Below are positions 1-40,597 of a stretch of DNA of 64,000 nt, one piece after another. The DNA comes from Oceaniovalibus guishaninsula JLT2003 (lineage in GTDB: Bacteria; Pseudomonadota; Alphaproteobacteria; Rhodobacterales; Rhodobacteraceae), in NCBI RefSeq assembly GCF_000299575.1, contig NZ_AMGO01000021.1:248001-312000 (forward strand), read 5' to 3'. The notes under the pieces were generated by a model. It did not search any database. It worked only from the letters and a program-made list of their open reading frames with translations, and was not told where the DNA came from. Every line of letters starts with the position of its first letter. The first letter of the stretch is position 1. Made by a program: the position numbers and the translations under genes.

Positions 1-635
1 CCGATGGCGCGACCCATGCGGGCGCGTTCGACATCGCGTTCCTGTCGAACCTGCCGGGCTTCACCGTGATGGCCGCCTCGGACGAGGCGGAGCTGGTGCA
101 CATGGTCGCGACGGCGGCCGCGCATGACGACGGGCCCATCGCCTTCCGCTTTCCGCGCGGCGAGGGAACGGGCGTCGATCTGCCCGAACGCGGCGTGCCG
201 CTGGAGATCGGCAAGGGGCGCATCCTGCGCGAGGGAAGCGGCGTCGCCATCCTGTGCCTCGGCACCCGCATGGTCGAGGTGTTGCAGGCCCACGAGGCGC
301 TGGCCGCGCGCGGCATCGTCCCGACCGTCGCCGATGCGCGGTTCGCCAAGCCGCTGGACCGCGAGATGATCCTGCAACTGGCGCGCGATCACGACGCGCT
401 GATCACGGTCGAGGAAGGCGCGGTGGGCGGATTCGGCAGCCATGTCGCGCAATTGCTGGCGGACGAGGGCGTGTTCGACGACGGGCTGGTCTTCCGGTCG
501 ATGGTTCTGCCCGATACGTTCATCGACCAGGCCGATCCGCGCGACATGTATGCCGTGGCCGGTCTGAACGCCGAGGATATCGAGGCGAAGGTGCTGTCGG
601 TCATGGGCGTGGCGCGGCTGAACAAGCGCGCCTGA
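1..635 (+). CDS. dxs: 1-deoxy-D-xylulose-5-phosphate synthase, C-terminal part
   Basis: This is the 3' end of dxs; the gene begins before the window and the first complete codon is at base 3. The enzyme condenses pyruvate and glyceraldehyde 3-phosphate into DXP using thiamine diphosphate, the first step of the MEP isoprenoid pathway in the cytoplasm. About 210 residues are visible. They cover the end of the pyrimidine-binding transketolase domain ([12 protein letters not shown]) and the C-terminal transketolase domain ([46 protein letters not shown]), all typical of Dxs. The gene stops three bases before the convergent radC stop codon. Identification is firm; only the missing 5' part is unknown. 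Confidence 0.95.
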
Positions 636-31560: not shown

Positions 31561-34047
31561 TCAGGTCAGGTTACGCTCGACTTCTTCACGGGTGAAGATC
31601 TCGATCACGTCGCCGACGCGGATGTCGTCGTAATTGTCGAACGCCATGCCGCATTCCTGACCGGACTGCACCTCGGCCACCTCGTCCTTGAAGCGCTTGA
31701 GCGTCTTCAGCGTGCCTTCGTGGACCACGACGTTGTCGCGCAGCAGACGCACGCCGGCCGACCGGCGCGCGACGCCTTCCGTGACGAGACAGCCGGCGAC
31801 CTTGCCGACATTGGACACCTTGAAGACCTCGCGGATCTGCGCATAGCCGATGAACGTTTCGCGCACCTCGGCCGAGAGCAGGCCGCTGGCCGCCGCCTTC
31901 ACGTCGTTCACCAGATCGTAGATGATCGAGTAATAGCGGATCTCGACCCCCTTTTGGTTCGCCGTCTGCCGCGCGCTGGCATTGGCCCGCACGTTGAAGC
32001 CGACGACCGACGCCGACGACGCTTCGGCCAGACCGATATCGGATTCGGTGATCGCGCCGACACCCGAATGAAGCACGCGAACGCGCACCTCGTCGTTGCC
32101 GATCTTCTCCATCGCCTGAACGATGGCCTCGGCGGAGCCCTGCACGTCGGCCTTCACCACGATGGGCAGTTCGGCGACGCTGCGGTCGGTCCTGGCGCGG
32201 GCCATCATCTGTTCCAGCGTCGTCGCCGCCCCCACCGCGGCGCGCTTGTCGCGCGCGGCATTGGCGCGGTATTCGGCGATCTCGCGCGCCTGCGCCTCGG
32301 TCTCGACCACGTTCAGCACATCGCCCGCTTCGGGCGTGCCGCTGAGGCCCAGAACCTCGACCGGAACGGACGGACCGGCTTCGGTCACGCGCTCGCCCTG
32401 GTCGTTCTCCATCGCGCGGACCTTGCCCCATTGCTCGCCGACGACAAAGATGTCGCCCTTGCGCAGGGTGCCGTTCTGCACCAGCACCGTCGCCACCGGC
32501 CCGCGGCCGACATCGAGCTGCGCTTCGATCACCGCGCCGCTGGCGGCACGGTCGGGGTTGGCCTTCAGCTCCAGCACCTCGGATTGCAGCGCGATGGCTT
32601 CCAGCAGGTTGTCCAGCCCCTTGCCGGTGGTCGCCGAAACCTCGACATCCTGCACGTCGCCGGACATCTTCTCGACGATGACCTCGTGCTGAAGCAGATC
32701 GGTGCGCACCTTGTCGGGATTGGCCGACGGCTTGTCGATCTTGTTGATCGCCACGATCATCGGCACCTTGGCGGCCTTGGCGTGGTTGATCGCCTCGATC
32801 GTCTGCGGCATCACGGCATCGTCGGCCGCGACCACCAGCACCACGATATCCGTGACCTGCGCGCCCCGTGCCCGCATCGACGTGAACGCGGCGTGACCCG
32901 GCGTGTCGAGGAACGTCAGTTCCTGACCGCCATCGGTCGTCACCTGATAGGCGCCGATATGCTGGGTGATGCCGCCCGCCTCGCCGGTGGCGACGCGCGC
33001 ATGGCGGATCGCGTCCAGCAGCGACGTCTTGCCGTGATCGACATGGCCCATGACGGTGATGATCGGCGCGCGCGGCTTCAGATCGGCGGCCTTGTCCTCG
33101 ACCTGGTCGATGACCTGCTCGACATCGGCATCGCTGACGCGGACGACCTTATGGCCAAAATCCTCGATGATCAGTTCGGCGGTATCGGCGTCGATGGTCT
33201 GGGTCTGGGTTGCCATGATGCCGTTCTGCATCAGCGCCTTGACCACATCGGCCACGCGTTCGGCCATCCGGTTGGCCAGTTCGCTGACGGTGATCGCCTC
33301 GGGCAGGTTGACGTTGCGCACGACCTTCTCGCGCTCGACCTTGCCGCCCATCGCCTTCTGGCGCGCGCGATCCTGCTTGCGGCGCATCTGCGCCAGCGAC
33401 CGCTGCCGGCCGCCCTCGCCGCCAGCAAGCGCTTGGTTCACGGTCAGCTTGCCGGACCGCCGCTTGTCGCCATCGCTCTTGCCGGGTTTGGCCACGCGGT
33501 CGCGCTCGCGGTCCTCGGTGGGCTTGCGCGTCGGCACCGGGCCCTTGGCGGCGCGCGCTTCGGCATCGGCGGGGGTGGGCTGGGGTTGCGCCGCGCGTTC
33601 GCGGGCCGCGGCCTCGTCGGCCAGACGGCGGGCATCTTCTTCGGCCTTGGCGCGCAGGGCATCCTCGCGCTCGCGCTCCTCGGCTTCCTTCGCCTCGATC
33701 TCGGCGCGGCGGCGCTCGCGCTCTTCGGCGCGGGCCTTCTCCTCGGCCTCGCGCTGCGCGGCTTCCTCGCCCTCGCGCGCCCTGGCGGCGGCAAGGGCCT
33801 TCATCCGCCGTTCGAGTTCGGCATCGGTGATCCCGGCGGGCCTGCGGGACGGATCGCCCTTGATCGGTCCGGCGGCGCCCGTGGGCTTGGCACCGGCCGC
33901 GGGCTTGGGGGCCACCACGCGCTTGCGCTTGACCTCGACCGCGACGTTCTTCGTCCGCCCGTGGCTGAAGCTTTGCTTCACCTGACCGGAACGCGGGCCG
34001 CCGGGGCCACGGACACCGAGGGTCTTCTTGCCGTCACTATCGCTCAT
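31561..34047 (-). CDS. infB: Translation initiation factor IF-2
   Basis: An 828-residue GTPase that brings initiator tRNA to the 30S subunit and promotes subunit joining. The N-terminal 300 residues contain basic and Ala/Glu/Arg-rich repeats (for example [18 protein letters not shown]), as usual for bacterial IF-2. The IF2_N motif is at [18 protein letters not shown]. The G domain carries [12 protein letters not shown] (G1), DTPGHAAF (G3) and NKIDKP (G4). Domains II, III and IV follow, ending with the tRNA-binding C2 region [19 protein letters not shown]. It overlaps the upstream RNA-binding gene by ATGA and is the last gene of the operon. Confidence 0.97.
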
Positions 34048-34685
34048 CGAGTCTTCTTCACCTTTCCGGCAACCCCGTCGGAAGGGACACCGTCGCCTGC
34101 GCGAACGCCTGAAAGCCGCACGGCGTCGTCCCTGAATAGATCAGCGAGTCTGCCTGCGGCGAGCGCCGCATGTATCACATGTTCACGTCCGAATGCCAAA
34201 CCCAATTCCCGGGCCGACAGAATGTCGAAATACGATCCCCGACCGCCCGGCCGGTGCAGCTTGCCCTTGCCGCGTTCGGACCCGTCCGAAGCCTGCAACA
34301 GGATCCCCGCCTGATCCTTGCCCAGCCAGTCCTTCACCTTCTCGTAGCCGGCGATCGCGGCACCGGCCTTGCGCGCAAGGGACAGCCGGTCGATCACCCG
34401 GCGCACCAGCGCCGCCTCGACCGAGGCGACCAGATCGTCGGGCACGACCACCTGCCGCTTGGCGCCTTTCGAGAACAGGCGCTTCTTCACCGCCATGTCC
34501 AGCGCCTCGCGCTCGGCCGCGACATACATGCCCCGGCCCGGCAGCTTGTTGGCCACATCGGGCCAGACGGCATCGTCCGGCCCCACGACAAAGCGAATCA
34601 GGCCGCGCCTGGGATTGACCTCGCCCGTTGCCAGACAGCGACGTTCGGGTTCGTCCGGCGCCGGCGCCGGCTTGCCGCGGGTCAT
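34044..34685 (-). CDS. RNA-binding protein with YlxR and L7Ae-like domains
   Basis: A 213-residue fusion of an N-terminal YlxR (DUF448) domain and a C-terminal ribosomal L7Ae-like domain. YlxR is marked by [20 protein letters not shown] and LPGRGMYV; the L7Ae-like part by [21 protein letters not shown] and [19 protein letters not shown]. In many alphaproteobacteria the two domains are one protein between nusA and infB; both bind RNA, and roles in RNase P or ribosome function have been proposed for YlxR. I chose ATG 34685; the frame is open further but upstream residues belong to the nusA 3' region. It starts 17 bases after nusA and overlaps infB by ATGA. Confidence 0.9.
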
Positions 34686-34702
34686 GGCGGGACTCTCCGT
34701 TC

Positions 34703-36310
34703 TCAGGCCTGCGCCTCCTCGACTTCGCCGTCTTCCTCGGCCGCGTCCAGATCGGCGGGATCGACCCAGCCAAGCTGGATCCGCGCCGACATGACCATCG
34801 CCTGCGCTTCTTCGAGGCTGACCTCGAACGGCTCCAGCACGCCGTCGTCCTTCTTGCGCTCGCCGTTCTCGACCGTCCAGCCGCCGGCCAGTTCCCAGTC
34901 GGCGCAAGTGGCGAAATCTTCCAGCGTCTTCACGCCGTCCTTGGCCAGCGCCTCGATCATCTGGGGTGTCAGCCCCTCGAATTCAACCAGGCTGTCCTCG
35001 ACGCCCAGCGCACGGGCCGCTTCCAGCGCCTTGCGGTTCTGTTCGTCCAGATAGTCGCGGGCGCGGGCCTGCAATTCGCCCGCCGTGTCGGCATCGACGC
35101 CGTCGATCACCAGCAGCTCGTCCGCCTCGACATAGGCCACCTCCTCGAGCGAGGTGAAGCCTTCGCTGACCAGAAGCTGCGCAAAGAACTCGTCCAGATC
35201 CAGCGTATCCATGAACAGCTTGGTGCGTTCCTCGAACTCGGCCTGGCGGCGCTGGCTTTCCTGTTCCTCGGTCATGATGTCGATATCCAGCCCGGTCAGC
35301 TGCGACGCCAGACGCACGTTCTGTCCGCGCCGTCCGATGGCCAGCGAAAGCTGCTCGTCGGGAACCACCACCTCGATGCGCTCGGCCTCCTCGTCCAGGA
35401 CGACCTTGCTGACCTCGGCGGGTTGCAGCGCGTTCACCAGGAAGGTCGGCACGTCCTCGTTCCAGGGGATGATGTCGATCTTCTCGCCCTGCAACTCGTT
35501 CACCACGGCCTGCACGCGGCTGCCGCGCATGCCGACGCAGGCGCCCACGGGGTCGATACTGCTGTCATAGGAAATGACGGCGATCTTGGCACGCGACCCC
35601 GGATCGCGGGCGACGGCCTTGATCTCGATGATGCCCTCGTAGATTTCGGGCACTTCCATGCGGAACAATTCGGCCATGAATTGCGGATCGGTCCGCGACA
35701 GGAAGATTTGCGGCCCCCGCACCTCGCGCCGCACGTCCTTGATATAGACGCGGATCCGGTCGTTCGGACGATAGCTTTCGCGGCCGATCTTGTCGTTGCG
35801 GCGCAGCACGCCCTCGCCGGGGTTCAGATCGACGATGACGTTGCCGTATTCCTCGCGCTTGACCAGCACGTTGATGATCGTGCCGACGCGGTCCTTGTAT
35901 TCCTCGAACTGCTTGTCGCGCTCGGCCTCGCGGATCTTCTGCAAGATGACCTGCTTGGCCGATTGCGCGGCGATGCGCCCCATCTCGACGGGCGGCACTT
36001 CCTCGGCGAAGACGTCGCCGACCTTGGGATCGTCCAGATAGGTGCGGGCCTGTTCGACGGTGAACTCGGCCTGGTAATTCTCGACCGCATCGTCCTCGAC
36101 CACGGTGCGCACGCGGGTGAAGGTCGCCCGCCCGGTCTTGCGGTCGATCTTCACGCGGATATCCATCTCGGCGCCGTAACGTGACTTGGCGGCACGGGCG
36201 AGGCTTTCCTCCATCGCCTCGACGACCAACGCGGGGTCGATCATCTTCTCGCGCGCCACGGCCTCGGCTGTCTGCAAAAGCTCGAGCTGGTTGGCGGATG
36301 TGATGGCCAT
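34703..36310 (-). CDS. nusA: Transcription termination/antitermination factor NusA
   Basis: A 535-residue RNA polymerase-binding factor controlling pausing, termination and antitermination. The N-terminal domain includes [18 protein letters not shown]. The S1 domain is around residues 135-200. The KH domains include [21 protein letters not shown] and [13 protein letters not shown]. The C-terminal half has helix-hairpin-helix-type segments ([17 protein letters not shown]-like and [20 protein letters not shown]) and an acidic tail. It lies 6 bases after rimP. NusA commonly regulates its own operon, which fits the hairpin in the rimP leader. Confidence 0.97.
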
Positions 36311-36316
36311 GGGGCT

Positions 36317-36919
36317 TCAGTCCTTCTGGTCGGGAAGACGGGCATCGTCTTCGCTGTCGATTATCGTCTCGATCTCGTCGAACTGGCTTTCGTCGATCTC
36401 GCCCGCGTTCTTGCGCGCGCGCAGAACCTCGCGGATCAGGTCGTCGGTCAGCACCAGCTTGGCGTCGCTCAGCCAGTCGAAGCGCAGCCCGATGGTGCCC
36501 TCGTCGATCTCGATCAGCACCTCGTCGCCCTCGACCCCGGCCAGCACGCCCTTGAAGCGGCGGCGGCCGTCGATCATCTCGGTCGTCTCGATCTTGGCGA
36601 CATGGCCCTGCCAGTCGTCGAAATCCTTCAGCCGGGTCAGCGGCCTGTCGATGCCGGGGCTCGACACTTCCAGCGTATAGGCGTCCTCGATGGGATCCTC
36701 GACATCCAGATGCGCCGAAGCGGCAGTCGAGATGCGGCCGCATTCGTCCACCTCGATCCCGCCGCCGGGACGGTCGGCCATGATCTGAACCGTGGGCGTC
36801 TTGCCGCCCATATAGCGCACGCGCACCAGCTCGAATCCCAGATCCTCGATCACGGGGGTCAGAATTTCGGCAAGCCGTCGGTCGATGCTGGCCTTGGCGA
36901 TCAGGTCGGACATGGGCAT
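36317..36919 (-). CDS. rimP: Ribosome maturation factor RimP
   Basis: A 200-residue factor needed for maturation of the 30S subunit. The N-terminal domain has [23 protein letters not shown], and the signature [20 protein letters not shown]. The C-terminal Sm-like barrel includes [18 protein letters not shown]. Translation may begin at ATG 36919 or, two codons later, at ATG 36913. It leads the rimP-nusA-ylxR/L7Ae-infB operon, and a terminator-like hairpin lies about 20-40 bases upstream of its start. Confidence 0.95.
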
Positions 36920-36937
36920 TCCCGAGATTCAAAGCAC

Positions 36938-36957
36938 AAAAAAAGGGCCAGCGGCCC
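36938..36957 (-). terminator. Terminator-like hairpin in the rimP leader (possible attenuator)
   Basis: On the minus strand GGGCC-GCT-GGCCC is followed directly by seven T residues: a compact intrinsic-terminator signature. It stands 19 bases ahead of the rimP start codon. No minus-strand gene precedes it, because the neighbour upstream (37102 on) runs the other way. It should therefore act within the rimP operon leader. A second small hairpin (GGGU-CCAA-ACCC) lies upstream at roughly 36980-36991. Confidence 0.6.
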
Positions 36958-37101
36958 GTCATGCTATCCGGTGGGTATCGGGTTTGGACCCCGACGCGCC
37001 GCTGTCAGACGATCAGATAAGGAATTGCCCTGCCGGATGCAAGTCCGCGATTGCCGGCGAAAGACACGCGATCTTAACGCATCGCCCCTAGACCCGGCGT
37101 G

Positions 37102-38823
37102 ATGGGCAACAGGTGGACATTCAAGGCGCGGCCGTCCGACCCGGACACGACCCGCCTGCAAATCGCGGCGATCGTGCGCGAACGGCCCAAACGCCTTGCG
37201 GCCATCGCCGCGGCGTCCATCGTTGCGATGCCCTTTCTGCCGCCTCATTGGCCCGCAACCTTCGGCCTTCTCTATTTCGCGATCGACCTCGGCGGCATCG
37301 CGGTGGAACGGCGCATGCTGTCATCGGGACGGCGGCGGTATTTCCTGCTGCATTCGCTGATGATCTTCGTAATCTCGGGCATCACCATCGCGACCCCCGT
37401 CATGCTGATGTCGGACGGGCGCCTTGCCCCCTTCGTCGTCGGCAGCACGATCATGTGGGGCATCGTGATCCATTGCGTCGTGATCCGCTCGTGGAACGTG
37501 CAGCTTTACGTTCTGGCGACCTTGCCGATTCTCGCCGGCTTTGCCGCGATGGTGCCGCCGGTCATCGGGACGGTCGGCAGGGTCGAGATGCTGGCCGTCA
37601 TCGGCAGCCTGCTGGGCGGCATCGCCTATATCGGCGCGGTAACGCGCGACGCCTTTCTTCTCAAGGCCGACCTGATCGGCGCCAAGCGGCAGGCCGATGC
37701 CGCGAACCGCGTCAAGGACCGCTTCCTGACGGCGATCAGCCACGAACTGCGCACACCGCTGAACGGGATCCTCGGCATCGCGCAGATGATGGCCGATGAC
37801 GCCCGCGACCGGGCCGAGGCCGAGCGGGCCGAGATCCTGATCGCATCCGGCACGATGCTGAAATCGCTGCTCGACGATATCCTCGATCATGCCAAGATGC
37901 AGGCGGGCGGATTCACCGTTTCGCCCGCGCCTGCCGATATTCGGCATATCGTCCGCTCGGTCCAGCGCCTGTTCAGAGATACCGCCGCGGCCAAGGGTCT
38001 GGTGCTGGAAACCGTCACGCACCATGCCGTCCCTCCCGCGTTAATGCTTGACACCCTGCGGGTAAAGCAGGTGGTCTCGAACCTGGTGGCGAACGCGATC
38101 GAACATACCGAACTGGGCTGCGTCGAAATTGGCGTCGCGTGGGACGCCGAAACGGGACGCCTGACGGTCGGGGTGCGGGACAGCGGCGCCGGCATCGCGC
38201 CCGACGACCTGCCGCTGCTGTTCCGGTCCTTCGCGCAGCTCGACGACGCATCGGCCCGGCGCGGCATCGGCACAGGGTTGGGGCTGTCGATATCGCGCGA
38301 TCTGGCGCGGCTGATGGGCGGCGATGTCACGGTGACGTCCGAATTGGGGCAAGGGTCGGACTTCACGCTGTCGCTGCCCGCGCCGAAGGCAGCGGATGGG
38401 CAAACGACCGCCGCATCGCCGGCCCCTCTGGCCGGTCTGCGGGTTCTGGTGGTGGACGACAATGCCACGAACCGCCTGATCGCCGGATCCTTTCTGGAAA
38501 GAATGGGCGCGCGGCCCGTCTTCGCCGCCGATGGCCGCGAGGCGCTCAAAGCCCTCGATCCGGCGCGTATGGACGTCGTGCTGATGGACATCCAGATGCC
38601 GGTTCTCGACGGACATGCGGCCACCGCCGCCATCCGCGCCGATCGCGCCTTCGACGCCATCCCTGTCATCGCGCTGACGGCGGGGGGTGGGCCGAACGAA
38701 GGTGACGGCTATCTCGGGCGGGGCTTCGACGGCTTTCTGCCCAAACCGCTGGGACGCAAGGCGATGGAGCGAGAGATCCTGCGCGTCCTGTCGTCGCGCC
38801 TTCCAGGTATCGCCGCCGAATGA
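37102..38823 (+). CDS. Hybrid sensor histidine kinase with receiver domain
   Basis: A 573-residue membrane sensor kinase. The N-terminal 180 residues hold about six predicted helices forming an integral-membrane sensor with no recognised ligand domain. The HisKA H-box is SHELRTPLNGILG with phosphoacceptor H214. The ATPase domain has the N-box NLVANAIEHT, DSGAGIA and GTGLGLSIS. A C-terminal receiver domain has the acidic pair in VVDDNATNRL, the phosphoacceptor Asp in VVLMDIQMPVLDG, the Thr in IALTAGG and the Lys in FLPKPLG. All catalytic residues are present. No response regulator or phosphotransfer gene is adjacent, so its pathway is unknown. A GTG one codon earlier (37099) is an alternative start. 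Confidence 0.9.
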   Translation: MGNRWTFKARPSDPDTTRLQIAAIVRERPKRLAAIAAASIVAMPFLPPHWPATFGLLYFAIDLGGIAVERRMLSSGRRRYFLLHSLMIFVISGITIATPVMLMSDGRLAPFVVGSTIMWGIVIHCVVIRSWNVQLYVLATLPILAGFAAMVPPVIGTVGRVEMLAVIGSLLGGIAYIGAVTRDAFLLKADLIGAKRQADAANRVKDRFLTAISHELRTPLNGILGIAQMMADDARDRAEAERAEILIASGTMLKSLLDDILDHAKMQAGGFTVSPAPADIRHIVRSVQRLFRDTAAAKGLVLETVTHHAVPPALMLDTLRVKQVVSNLVANAIEHTELGCVEIGVAWDAETGRLTVGVRDSGAGIAPDDLPLLFRSFAQLDDASARRGIGTGLGLSISRDLARLMGGDVTVTSELGQGSDFTLSLPAPKAADGQTTAASPAPLAGLRVLVVDDNATNRLIAGSFLERMGARPVFAADGREALKALDPARMDVVLMDIQMPVLDGHAATAAIRADRAFDAIPVIALTAGGGPNEGDGYLGRGFDGFLPKPLGRKAMEREILRVLSSRLPGIAAE

Positions 38824-38826
38824 CGG

Positions 38827-39801
38827 TCAGTCCCCGGCGCGCAGGCGGTCCATCGTGCGCACCAGTTCCGCGCTGATGCCAGGCTCGCTCAGCGCGTGGC
38901 CGGCGCGCGGCACCATCACCAGCGTCGAGGCGGGCCATGCGGCATGCAGCGCATGCGCGGCCGCCGGCGGGCAGATCATGTCATAGCGGCCCTGCACGAT
39001 CGTGCCCGGCACCTGCGCGATCCGCCCCGCATCGCGCAGGATCTGCCCGTCCGTGTCGAGAAACCCGGCATGGGTGAAATAGTGGTTCTCCAGCCGGGCA
39101 AAGGCGCGGGCATATTCCGCCGGGCTGTCGCCGCCCGGCCCTTCGTTCGCCATGCTGGCCAGCGAGTTTTCCCAACTCGCCCAGGCACGCGCGAACCGCG
39201 TCTCGATCTGCGGATCGCCCGAAAACAGCCGGCGGTGATAGGCGGCGATCAGGTCGCCGCGCTCGTCCTCGGGAACCAGCTCGACGAAGCGGCGCCAGAT
39301 GTCGGGCCAGAACCGTCCCGCACCACCGCCATAGAACCAGGCCAGCTCCGCCTGCGTCATCAGGAACACGCCGCGCAGCACCAGATGCGCCACGCGGTCG
39401 GCATGCGCCTCGGCATAGATCAGCGCCAGCGTGGCACCCCAGCTTCCGCCGAAGACGATCCAGCGGTCGATCCCCAGGGTCGCGCGGATCAGCTCGATGT
39501 CGCGCACCAGATGCCAGGTCGTATTCGCCTCGACCGACGCATGGGGCCGCGACCGGCCGCAGCCGCGCTGGTCGAACAGCACGACGCGATAGACGGACGG
39601 ATCGAAATAGCGCCGCATCGACGGCGAACAGCCGCCCCCCGGCCCCCCGTGCAGCACCACGACCGGCACGCCGTCGGGCCGTCCGCATTGTTCGACATAG
39701 ACGCGATGGCCGTCGCCCACGTCCAGCATCCGCTGGTCGAACGGGTCGATCCGGGGATAGAGCAGCGCCGCCGCGCCGTTTTGTCCTGCCGCCTTGTCCA
39801 T
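38827..39801 (-). CDS. pip: Prolyl aminopeptidase (proline iminopeptidase)
   Basis: A 324-residue alpha/beta hydrolase that removes N-terminal proline from peptides in the cytoplasm (peptidase family S33). The oxyanion region is [10 protein letters not shown], the nucleophile elbow [10 protein letters not shown] with S120, the acid in GRYDMICP and the base in [20 protein letters not shown] is typical of the family. The frame is open further upstream, but the start at 39801 gives the usual [20 protein letters not shown]-terminus. It ends 3 bases after the convergent kinase gene and diverges from ubiG; a TATATA box in the 55-base gap could serve either gene. Confidence 0.93.
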
Positions 39802-39856
39802 GACCGGACTATATAAGCGGCAATTCCGCCCCGCCATGCCCGCAAAGGATAAAACT

Positions 39857-40597
39857 ATGCCGACCACCACCATCGACCCCGCCGAGATCGACAAGTTCAG
39901 CGCCATGGCGGCCGAATGGTGGGATCCGCAGGGCAAGTTCAAACCGCTGCACATGATGAATCCGTGCCGGCTGGACTATATCCGCACCCAGATCGCCGCC
40001 GAGTTCGACCGCGACCTGACCGCGCCCCGTCCGTTCGCGGGGCTGCGCATCCTCGACATCGGCTGCGGCGGCGGGCTCCTGTCGGAACCGATGGCGCGGC
40101 TGGGGGCCGATGTGGTGGGTGCCGATGCAGCGGAACGCAACATCCCCGTGGCGCAGGTTCACGCGCGCGAACAGGGCCTCGACATCGACTATCGCCACAC
40201 CACCGCCGAGGCGCTGGCCGAGGCGGGCGAACGGTTCGACATCGTCCTGAACATGGAGGTGGTCGAGCATGTGTCCGACCCGCAGGCCTATCTGACCGCC
40301 TGTCACGATCTGCTGAAACCCGGCGGGTTTATGGTCTGCTCGACCATCAACCGCAATCCTCGCAGCTTCGCCTATGCGATCCTGGGGGCCGAATGGATCA
40401 TGCGCTGGTTACCCAAGGGCACGCATGACTGGTCGAAGTTCATCACCCCGGACGAGCTTTGCGCGATGATCGAACGCGCGGGCCTGACGCCGGTGGACCG
40501 AACGGGCTTCGTCTTCGACTTCGTGCGCTGGTCGTGGTCGCTGTCCGACCGCGACCTGGCCGTGAACTACGTCACCGCCTCGACCAGACCCGCCTGA
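39857..40597 (+). CDS. ubiG: Ubiquinone biosynthesis O-methyltransferase UbiG
   Basis: A 246-residue SAM-dependent methyltransferase performing both O-methylation steps of ubiquinone synthesis (2-polyprenyl-6-hydroxyphenol and 3-demethylubiquinol). Motif I is [13 protein letters not shown], followed by [22 protein letters not shown] and the family segment [30 protein letters not shown]. The frame is open 21 codons upstream, but ATG 39857 has AAGGAT 6 bases ahead and starts the typical [22 protein letters not shown] sequence. It is convergent with grxC, seven bases apart. Confidence 0.96.

Follow-up and report, generated by a model that had tools for sequence, protein, structure and literature searches.

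As described in the text of Naville and Gautheret (2010, PMC2965389), the rimP-leader consists of a terminator stem of the form GGGc(...)gCCC followed by a U-stretch, situated 4-130 nt from the gene start. According to the same text, its general form has no visible antiterminator and NusA was suggested as the controller, and several Gammaproteobacteria carry a second, upstream terminator together with an antiterminator. In B. subtilis, NusA was reported to stimulate intrinsic termination within the leader that precedes the nusA gene itself (Mondal et al. 2016, as summarised in a passage of the review PMC12288461). A passage of an E. coli 3'-end survey (PMC7815308) reports that a rimP 5' UTR fusion fell in a Rho mutant. 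Through NusA, IF2 and RimP, transcription is connected with translation and with the assembly of ribosomes. By title and the start of the abstract, no paper was recognised as describing a Rhodobacteraceae rimP leader in a search with subscription papers mostly outside its coverage, and rimP and nusA were absent from the main text of three RNA motif surveys. Rhodobacteraceae leaders may be listed in the supplements of PMC2965389.

The window analysed here is a 64,000-nt stretch of Oceaniovalibus guishaninsula JLT2003, whose minus strand carries rimP, nusA, ylxR and infB in this order, as identified by the Pfam families RimP, NusA, YlxR and IF-2 (Table 1). The proteins of relatives, which begin with MSDLI, suggest that rimP starts at the ATG at 36913, 24 nt after the U-tract; the ATG at 36919 lies 18 nt after it. 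The leader reads ACAGCGGC...GACGGGCCGCTGGCCCTTTTTTTGTGC on the minus strand from 37005 to 36934. An earlier note on this DNA had described a GC stem followed by seven U residues between a probable promoter, TTGCAT-N17-TATCTG, and rimP. The description of the hairpin was exact and both promoter elements are present on the minus strand as claimed, although a simple sigma-70 scan listed no promoter in the region.

Table 1. Features of the rimP leader and its surroundings (window positions)
Feature	Position	Strand	Basis or remark
-35 element TTGCAT	37037..37042	-	sequence
-10 element TATCTG, 17 nt after the -35 element	37014..37019	-	sequence
Inferred transcription start (G/A of GACAGCGG)	37005..37006	-	distance from -10 element to leader across the family
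Switch strand CAGCGGC, antiterminator 5' strand; part can close P1	36998..37004	-	complement of 36949-36955; swap tests, pair counts, folding
P1 hairpin	36969..37001	-	inner stem GUCGGG/CCCGAU, 36995-36990 with 36982-36977
P1 closing stem CGG/CCG	37001-36999 with 36971-36969	-	window fold, pair counts
GCCGCTG, antiterminator 3' strand (terminator 5' arm and loop)	36949..36955	-	swap tests, folding, pair counts
Intrinsic terminator hairpin GGGCC-GCT-GGCCC (GGGCCGCTGGCCC; 5 G-C pairs, 3-nt loop)	36945..36957	-	terminator scan
U-tract, 7 T	36938..36944	-	sequence, terminator scan
rimP	36317..36919	-	Pfam RimP_N, DUF150_C; alignment A1
nusA	34703..36310	-	Pfam NusA_N, KH domains
ylxR	34044..34907	-	Pfam YlxR; start uncertain, longest ORF overlaps nusA
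infB	31561..34047	-	Pfam IF-2, GTP_EFTU, IF2_N
Hybrid sensor kinase, divergent, upstream of the rimP leader	37099-38823	+	Pfam
Hydrolase-like ORF on the far side of the kinase from rimP	38827-39954	-	

RimP was found in 152 of the 159 family genomes, or 151 of 158 genera. Whole-genome searches gave 161 family leaders, 149 of them about one per genus, and 80 further leaders were taken from named genomes, which were partly the same genomes. A total of 237 leaders was parsed, and collapsing the identical ones left 224 distinct leaders. The set left out L025-L030 (other families), L240 (less than 100 nt upstream), L156, the match in genome G130 (contig edge) and the matches of two genomes. Two leaders near contig ends, L042 and L056, stand outside the 224 and outside alignment A2; both carry the consensus element. 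The motif of the terminator 5' arm with a T-run was present in 148 of the 149 leaders taken at about one per genus. These 148 are the 146 leaders of alignment A2 (including a few aberrant ones, e.g. L050 and L162) together with L042 and L056, and the sole exception, L156, had no terminator by the search pattern used.

Conservation of the hairpin and its U-tract in relatives had been named by the earlier note as a test of its proposal, and both elements were kept across the family. The common forms of the terminator were CGGGCCGCGCGCCCG and CGGGCCGCTGGCCCG, the former being found exactly in 103 of the 224 distinct leaders. The window stem lacks the final G of the family consensus, and its hairpin energy is among the three weakest of the 224. 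Local statistics were not beyond chance: 2.5 kb held 3 terminator-like sites against 1.3 +/- 1.3 in shuffles, and the fold of the window leader was no stabler than those of shuffles (z = -0.35; 70 of 200 as good). A chance hairpin, for which these local statistics would be insufficient as a rebuttal, is ruled out by the family-wide conservation; it is because hairpin and U-tract stand before rimP across the family that we judged the hairpin to be real. A GTG directly 3' of the U-tract was seen in 133 of 224 leaders (window 36937-36934).

In the family, the order of parts is TTGC at about -35, a TATAT-like box at about -12, AACAGCGGC, P1, CCACCG, a linker that varies, CGGGCCGCNNGCCCG or something close to it, about seven T and often GTG. 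TTGC situated 46-22 nt upstream of the leader start and joined to a loosely defined -10 hexamer was found in 203 of the 224 distinct leaders, and TTGC stood at -35 or -36 in 186 of them. Counted from the leader start, the positional consensus of the -10 element was TATAT at -12 to -8. Judged from this spacing, transcription would begin close to the first A of AACAG; the start would then lie upstream of the hairpin, whereas the earlier note had named a start downstream of it as a refutation.

A covariance model, R1, was built on the 146 aligned leaders. In the window it matched 36932-37009 at 70 bits, the next match being at 18.8 bits. In 30 relatives, the best match of each of 18 family genomes reached 51-89 bits just before rimP, and no other listed site exceeded 28.8 bits. 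Across the order, R1 matched in 149 of 149 genomes and 73 of 73 genera, all shown as Rhodobacteraceae, and the site was at rimP in all 18 genomes whose positions were compared. Secondary matches numbered 24 in 8 family genomes. The idea of several such leaders per genome was rejected, as none of the 10 inspected among these 24 was rimP-like; by eye, most resembled gene-end terminators whose stems are similar, and one lay in apparent coding sequence.

The part of the leader that the earlier note had not contained is the antiterminator together with the P1 hairpin. In the window, CAGCGGC near the inferred 5' end is the exact complement of GCCGCTG in the terminator. The family consensus of the inferred first RNA nucleotides was AACAGCGGC, and this 5' strand was complementary to the 5' arm and loop of the terminator in most of the 224 distinct leaders. 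Partners were then swapped among leaders, without phylogeny and with only identical strands collapsed, so that the following values are no count of independent compensatory events. With 54 deviant leaders, none of 5000 partner shuffles paired as well as the real partners. When each of the 53 distinct terminator strands was entered only once, the real value was reached by none of 4000 shuffles, and with the 18 strands lacking GCCGC, by 7 of 4000. Covarying examples include CAGAGGC/GCCTCTG (L062), CAACGGC/GCCGTTG (L203, Rhodovulum tesquicola), CAACAG/CTGTTG (L106) and ACAGG/CCTGT (L245). One family leader without the usual 5' strand, L050, carries CGCAGACGC with GTGTCTGCG instead.

Pair counts on the 146-row alignment, likewise computed without phylogeny, gave a more restrained picture. 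The five core antiterminator pairs were paired in 95.9% of cells, with double changes in 2 of the 5, and the two outer pairs held in only 31.8%. Taken over all 7 pairs, 77.6% of cells were paired compared with 76.4% after shuffling. This small gain is attributable to the near invariance of the core pairs and to outer pairs that hold in a third of the cells. Double-change cells were more frequent than in shuffles (12 against 6.3 +/- 1.9; 3 of 500 shuffles as high). RNAalifold predicted no pairs on the same alignment.

For the P1 hairpin, changes on both sides were found at 8 of 8 inner pairs in the 146 leaders, and the closing stem was 96.8% paired with zero double changes. P1, its closing stem and the terminator together had 89.5% of cells paired, compared with 82.9% after shuffling and 28-54% with slid partners. 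Within their P1 part, 149 of 224 leaders have TCCA[AC][AC]C (window P1 loop, 36989-36983), and CCACCG was found in 196 of 224 (window 36974-36969); the two motifs are conserved and alike, and might form a protein site. Pairing of P1 or CCACCG with the ribosome-binding stretch after the U-tract was also considered and rejected, as 191 of 200 shuffles scored at least as high.

To follow the order of folding, growing transcripts of all 224 leaders were truncated and folded. Before the terminator emerges, 218 of 224 leaders were predicted to have the 5' strand paired with the P1 region; when the transcript reached two nucleotides beyond the loop, this strand paired with the terminator strand as antiterminator in 217. 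Once the whole U-tract was included, the terminator was favoured with 5.0 pairs on average, and an antiterminator of three or more pairs was left in 12 of 224. When the first 12 nt were shuffled, pairing with the terminator strand still occurred in 152 of 448 cases. Base composition therefore explains a part of the antiterminator folding, but not most of it. The window itself is one of the exceptions, since the antiterminator stays the predicted fold even at the U-tract. If so, readthrough would be greater in O. guishaninsula than in its relatives. As predicted from sequence, covariation and folding, terminator and antiterminator share one strand and are mutually exclusive.

Our main reading, to which we assign a probability of roughly 60%, is that the rimP-nusA-infB leader is a cis-acting transcription attenuator with an embedded antiterminator and with NusA as its most likely controller. 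RNA polymerase would start at about 37006 and make a leader of about 70 nt, the 5' end of which is the switch strand. This strand would first close P1, CGG pairing with CCG. Once the 5' arm and loop of the terminator emerge, it would leave P1 and pair with GCCGC(UG) to form the antiterminator, and with the emergence of the 3' arm the two structures would compete. Should the terminator win, a short RNA of about 70 nt would be released; should the antiterminator persist, the rimP-nusA-infB mRNA would be made. A slower polymerase, or help in closing the short hairpin, would favour termination. As NusA is the product of the second gene, its control of termination would complete a negative feedback loop. 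Actual termination and readthrough at the leader are deduced from these predicted structures. NusA as the effector is plausible, by analogy with B. subtilis and from the content of the operon, and is the weakest link of the scheme. The earlier note had envisaged an attenuator sensing NusA or ribosome status; its attenuator, though not the sensing, is supported as far as sequence goes, by a terminator between a family-wide promoter and rimP and by a 5' strand that covaries as antiterminator. We regard the chances as evenly balanced for a further proposal, namely that the first nucleotides of the transcript form a three-way switch strand (in P1, in the antiterminator or released), shared across the family, by which the leader would respond to NusA and to the speed of polymerase with no need for a ligand-binding domain. 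If true, it would be a distinct type of attenuator that controls, in the whole of the Rhodobacteraceae, how much of a general transcription factor is made. In O. guishaninsula and its relatives, the leader RNA can apparently adopt either a terminating or a readthrough fold, and the transcription factor would probably limit its own production in this way.

The same structures could be read in other ways. Attenuation might respond to another signal, such as RimP or a ribosomal protein bound to P1 and CCACCG, the NTP level or the polymerase speed. The two conserved motifs, TCCA[AC][AC]C and CCACCG, do resemble a binding site, and with its switch strand at the 5' end the leader would sense the elongation rate; the B. 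subtilis precedent nevertheless favours NusA, and we hold another signal to be possible but distinctly less probable, with a P1-binding protein as the main alternative signal. It is rather unlikely that the terminator works without an antiterminator, being weak and having NusA as the only factor that acts on it, with the 5' strand kept for example to close P1. NusA-only control was indeed suggested in the text of Naville and Gautheret and reported for B. subtilis in the review passage, the columns of the core pairs hardly vary within the family, and leaders of other families have hairpin and U-tract with a negative swap test (see below). In the family, however, the 5' strand covaries with the terminator strand, and P1 closure alone would not make it track the terminator loop.

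A pseudoknot aiding termination, in which the loop of a formed terminator would be bound by the 5' end, seems improbable to us. Most of the covarying letters do lie in the loop, but many loops have only 3 nt, which was judged too tight for three pairs with the stem closed, and in most cases the pairing takes in stem letters (GCC) as well, so that it cannot coexist with the hairpin. It is highly improbable that the hairpin simply ends the transcript of the upstream gene, as gene-end terminators do, and follows the rimP promoter by chance. The earlier note had stated that there is no upstream gene to terminate. This holds for the window, where the upstream kinase is divergent and no codirectional gene ends just 5' of the leader; it may fail for many relatives, since 88 of the 115 leaders with long flanks have, 18-240 nt upstream, the end of a codirectional open frame that spans 150 codons or more, a count from a simple open-frame test without homology in which some frames are possibly not genes. 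The terminator may therefore also serve that upstream gene. On the other hand, the element is still kept in the window and in the 27 of 115 leaders without such a frame, the promoter precedes the hairpin, and the 5' strand covaries with the terminator. Given the frame found before the leader in these relatives, the hybrid sensor kinase may be an insertion in O. guishaninsula.

Outside the family, the hairpin extends further than the antiterminator. Hairpin and U-tract were found before rimP in 21 of 28 leaders of other alphaproteobacterial families, which agrees with the general rimP-leader. Most of these hairpins read GTGGGC(C)...(G)GCCCRC, and besides the 21, L030 has a hairpin with a different sequence. 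In the 21 leaders, the swap test for an antiterminator was negative, 469 of 1000 shuffles being as good. Across the class, 190 genomes gave R1 matches at E <= 0.001 in 14, including 3 Rhodobacteraceae, with kinship shown for the listed genomes. The 11 genomes outside the family reached at most 38.7 bits, at 13 places. Seven of these places (6 genomes) were inspected and 4 of the 7 lie before rimP; among these four, only L304 shows the antiterminator clearly, with ACAGCGGT facing GTGGGCCGCTGGCCCAC in the same arrangement before rimP (match 79-163, minus strand). Another leader from outside the family, L268, has an 11-bp complement between its sequence TCGCTGGCTCG and the rimP terminator TGGGCCAGCGG, which may be an independent antiterminator. 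The L268 and L304 cases may be either independent of the family antiterminator or related to it.

Compared with the described systems, the leader shares its gene and the general idea with the Rfam family RF01770 (rimP). RF01770 gave no match in the genome of O. guishaninsula at E <= 10, its 47-bit cut-off not being reached, and none in window 36000-38000 at E <= 5; a control set gave matches in 12 of 14 genomes, with 1 over the cut-off. No Rfam family had a gathering-score match in the window, and a relaxed threshold returned three weak unrelated matches in 36000-38000, so membership in a known Rfam family was discarded. The E. coli metY-rimP-nusA-infB leader, as described in a part of PMC6511841, likewise has terminators (t1 and t2) upstream of rimP, but its several promoters, the tRNA gene within the leader and the RNase III sites are all E. 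coli's own. With B. subtilis the leader shares a terminator before the nusA operon, and dependence on NusA would follow here by analogy; as a difference, the review passage (PMC12288461) mentions no antiterminator.

The closest relative is the rimP-leader itself. The present leader agrees with its description in PMC2965389 in being the 5' leader of rimP-nusA-infB (with an inferred start), in the type of stem followed by T7 and in the distance to the gene. It differs from the general form described there by its covarying antiterminator, and we have therefore filed it as a variant of the rimP-leader and not as the general form. Compared with the tandem gammaproteobacterial form of the same text, it has one terminator, the antiterminator strand lies at the inferred RNA 5' end and P1 stands between them. 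We call it a Rhodobacteraceae variant of the rimP-leader, in which the terminator is of a known kind; no description of the antiterminator and P1 was recognised among the papers searched. Because the leader is short (about 70 nt) and its predicted antiterminator covaries, it is directly testable by compensatory mutants, one strand having two partners. With it, a type of leader in whose general form no antiterminator had been visible gains one.
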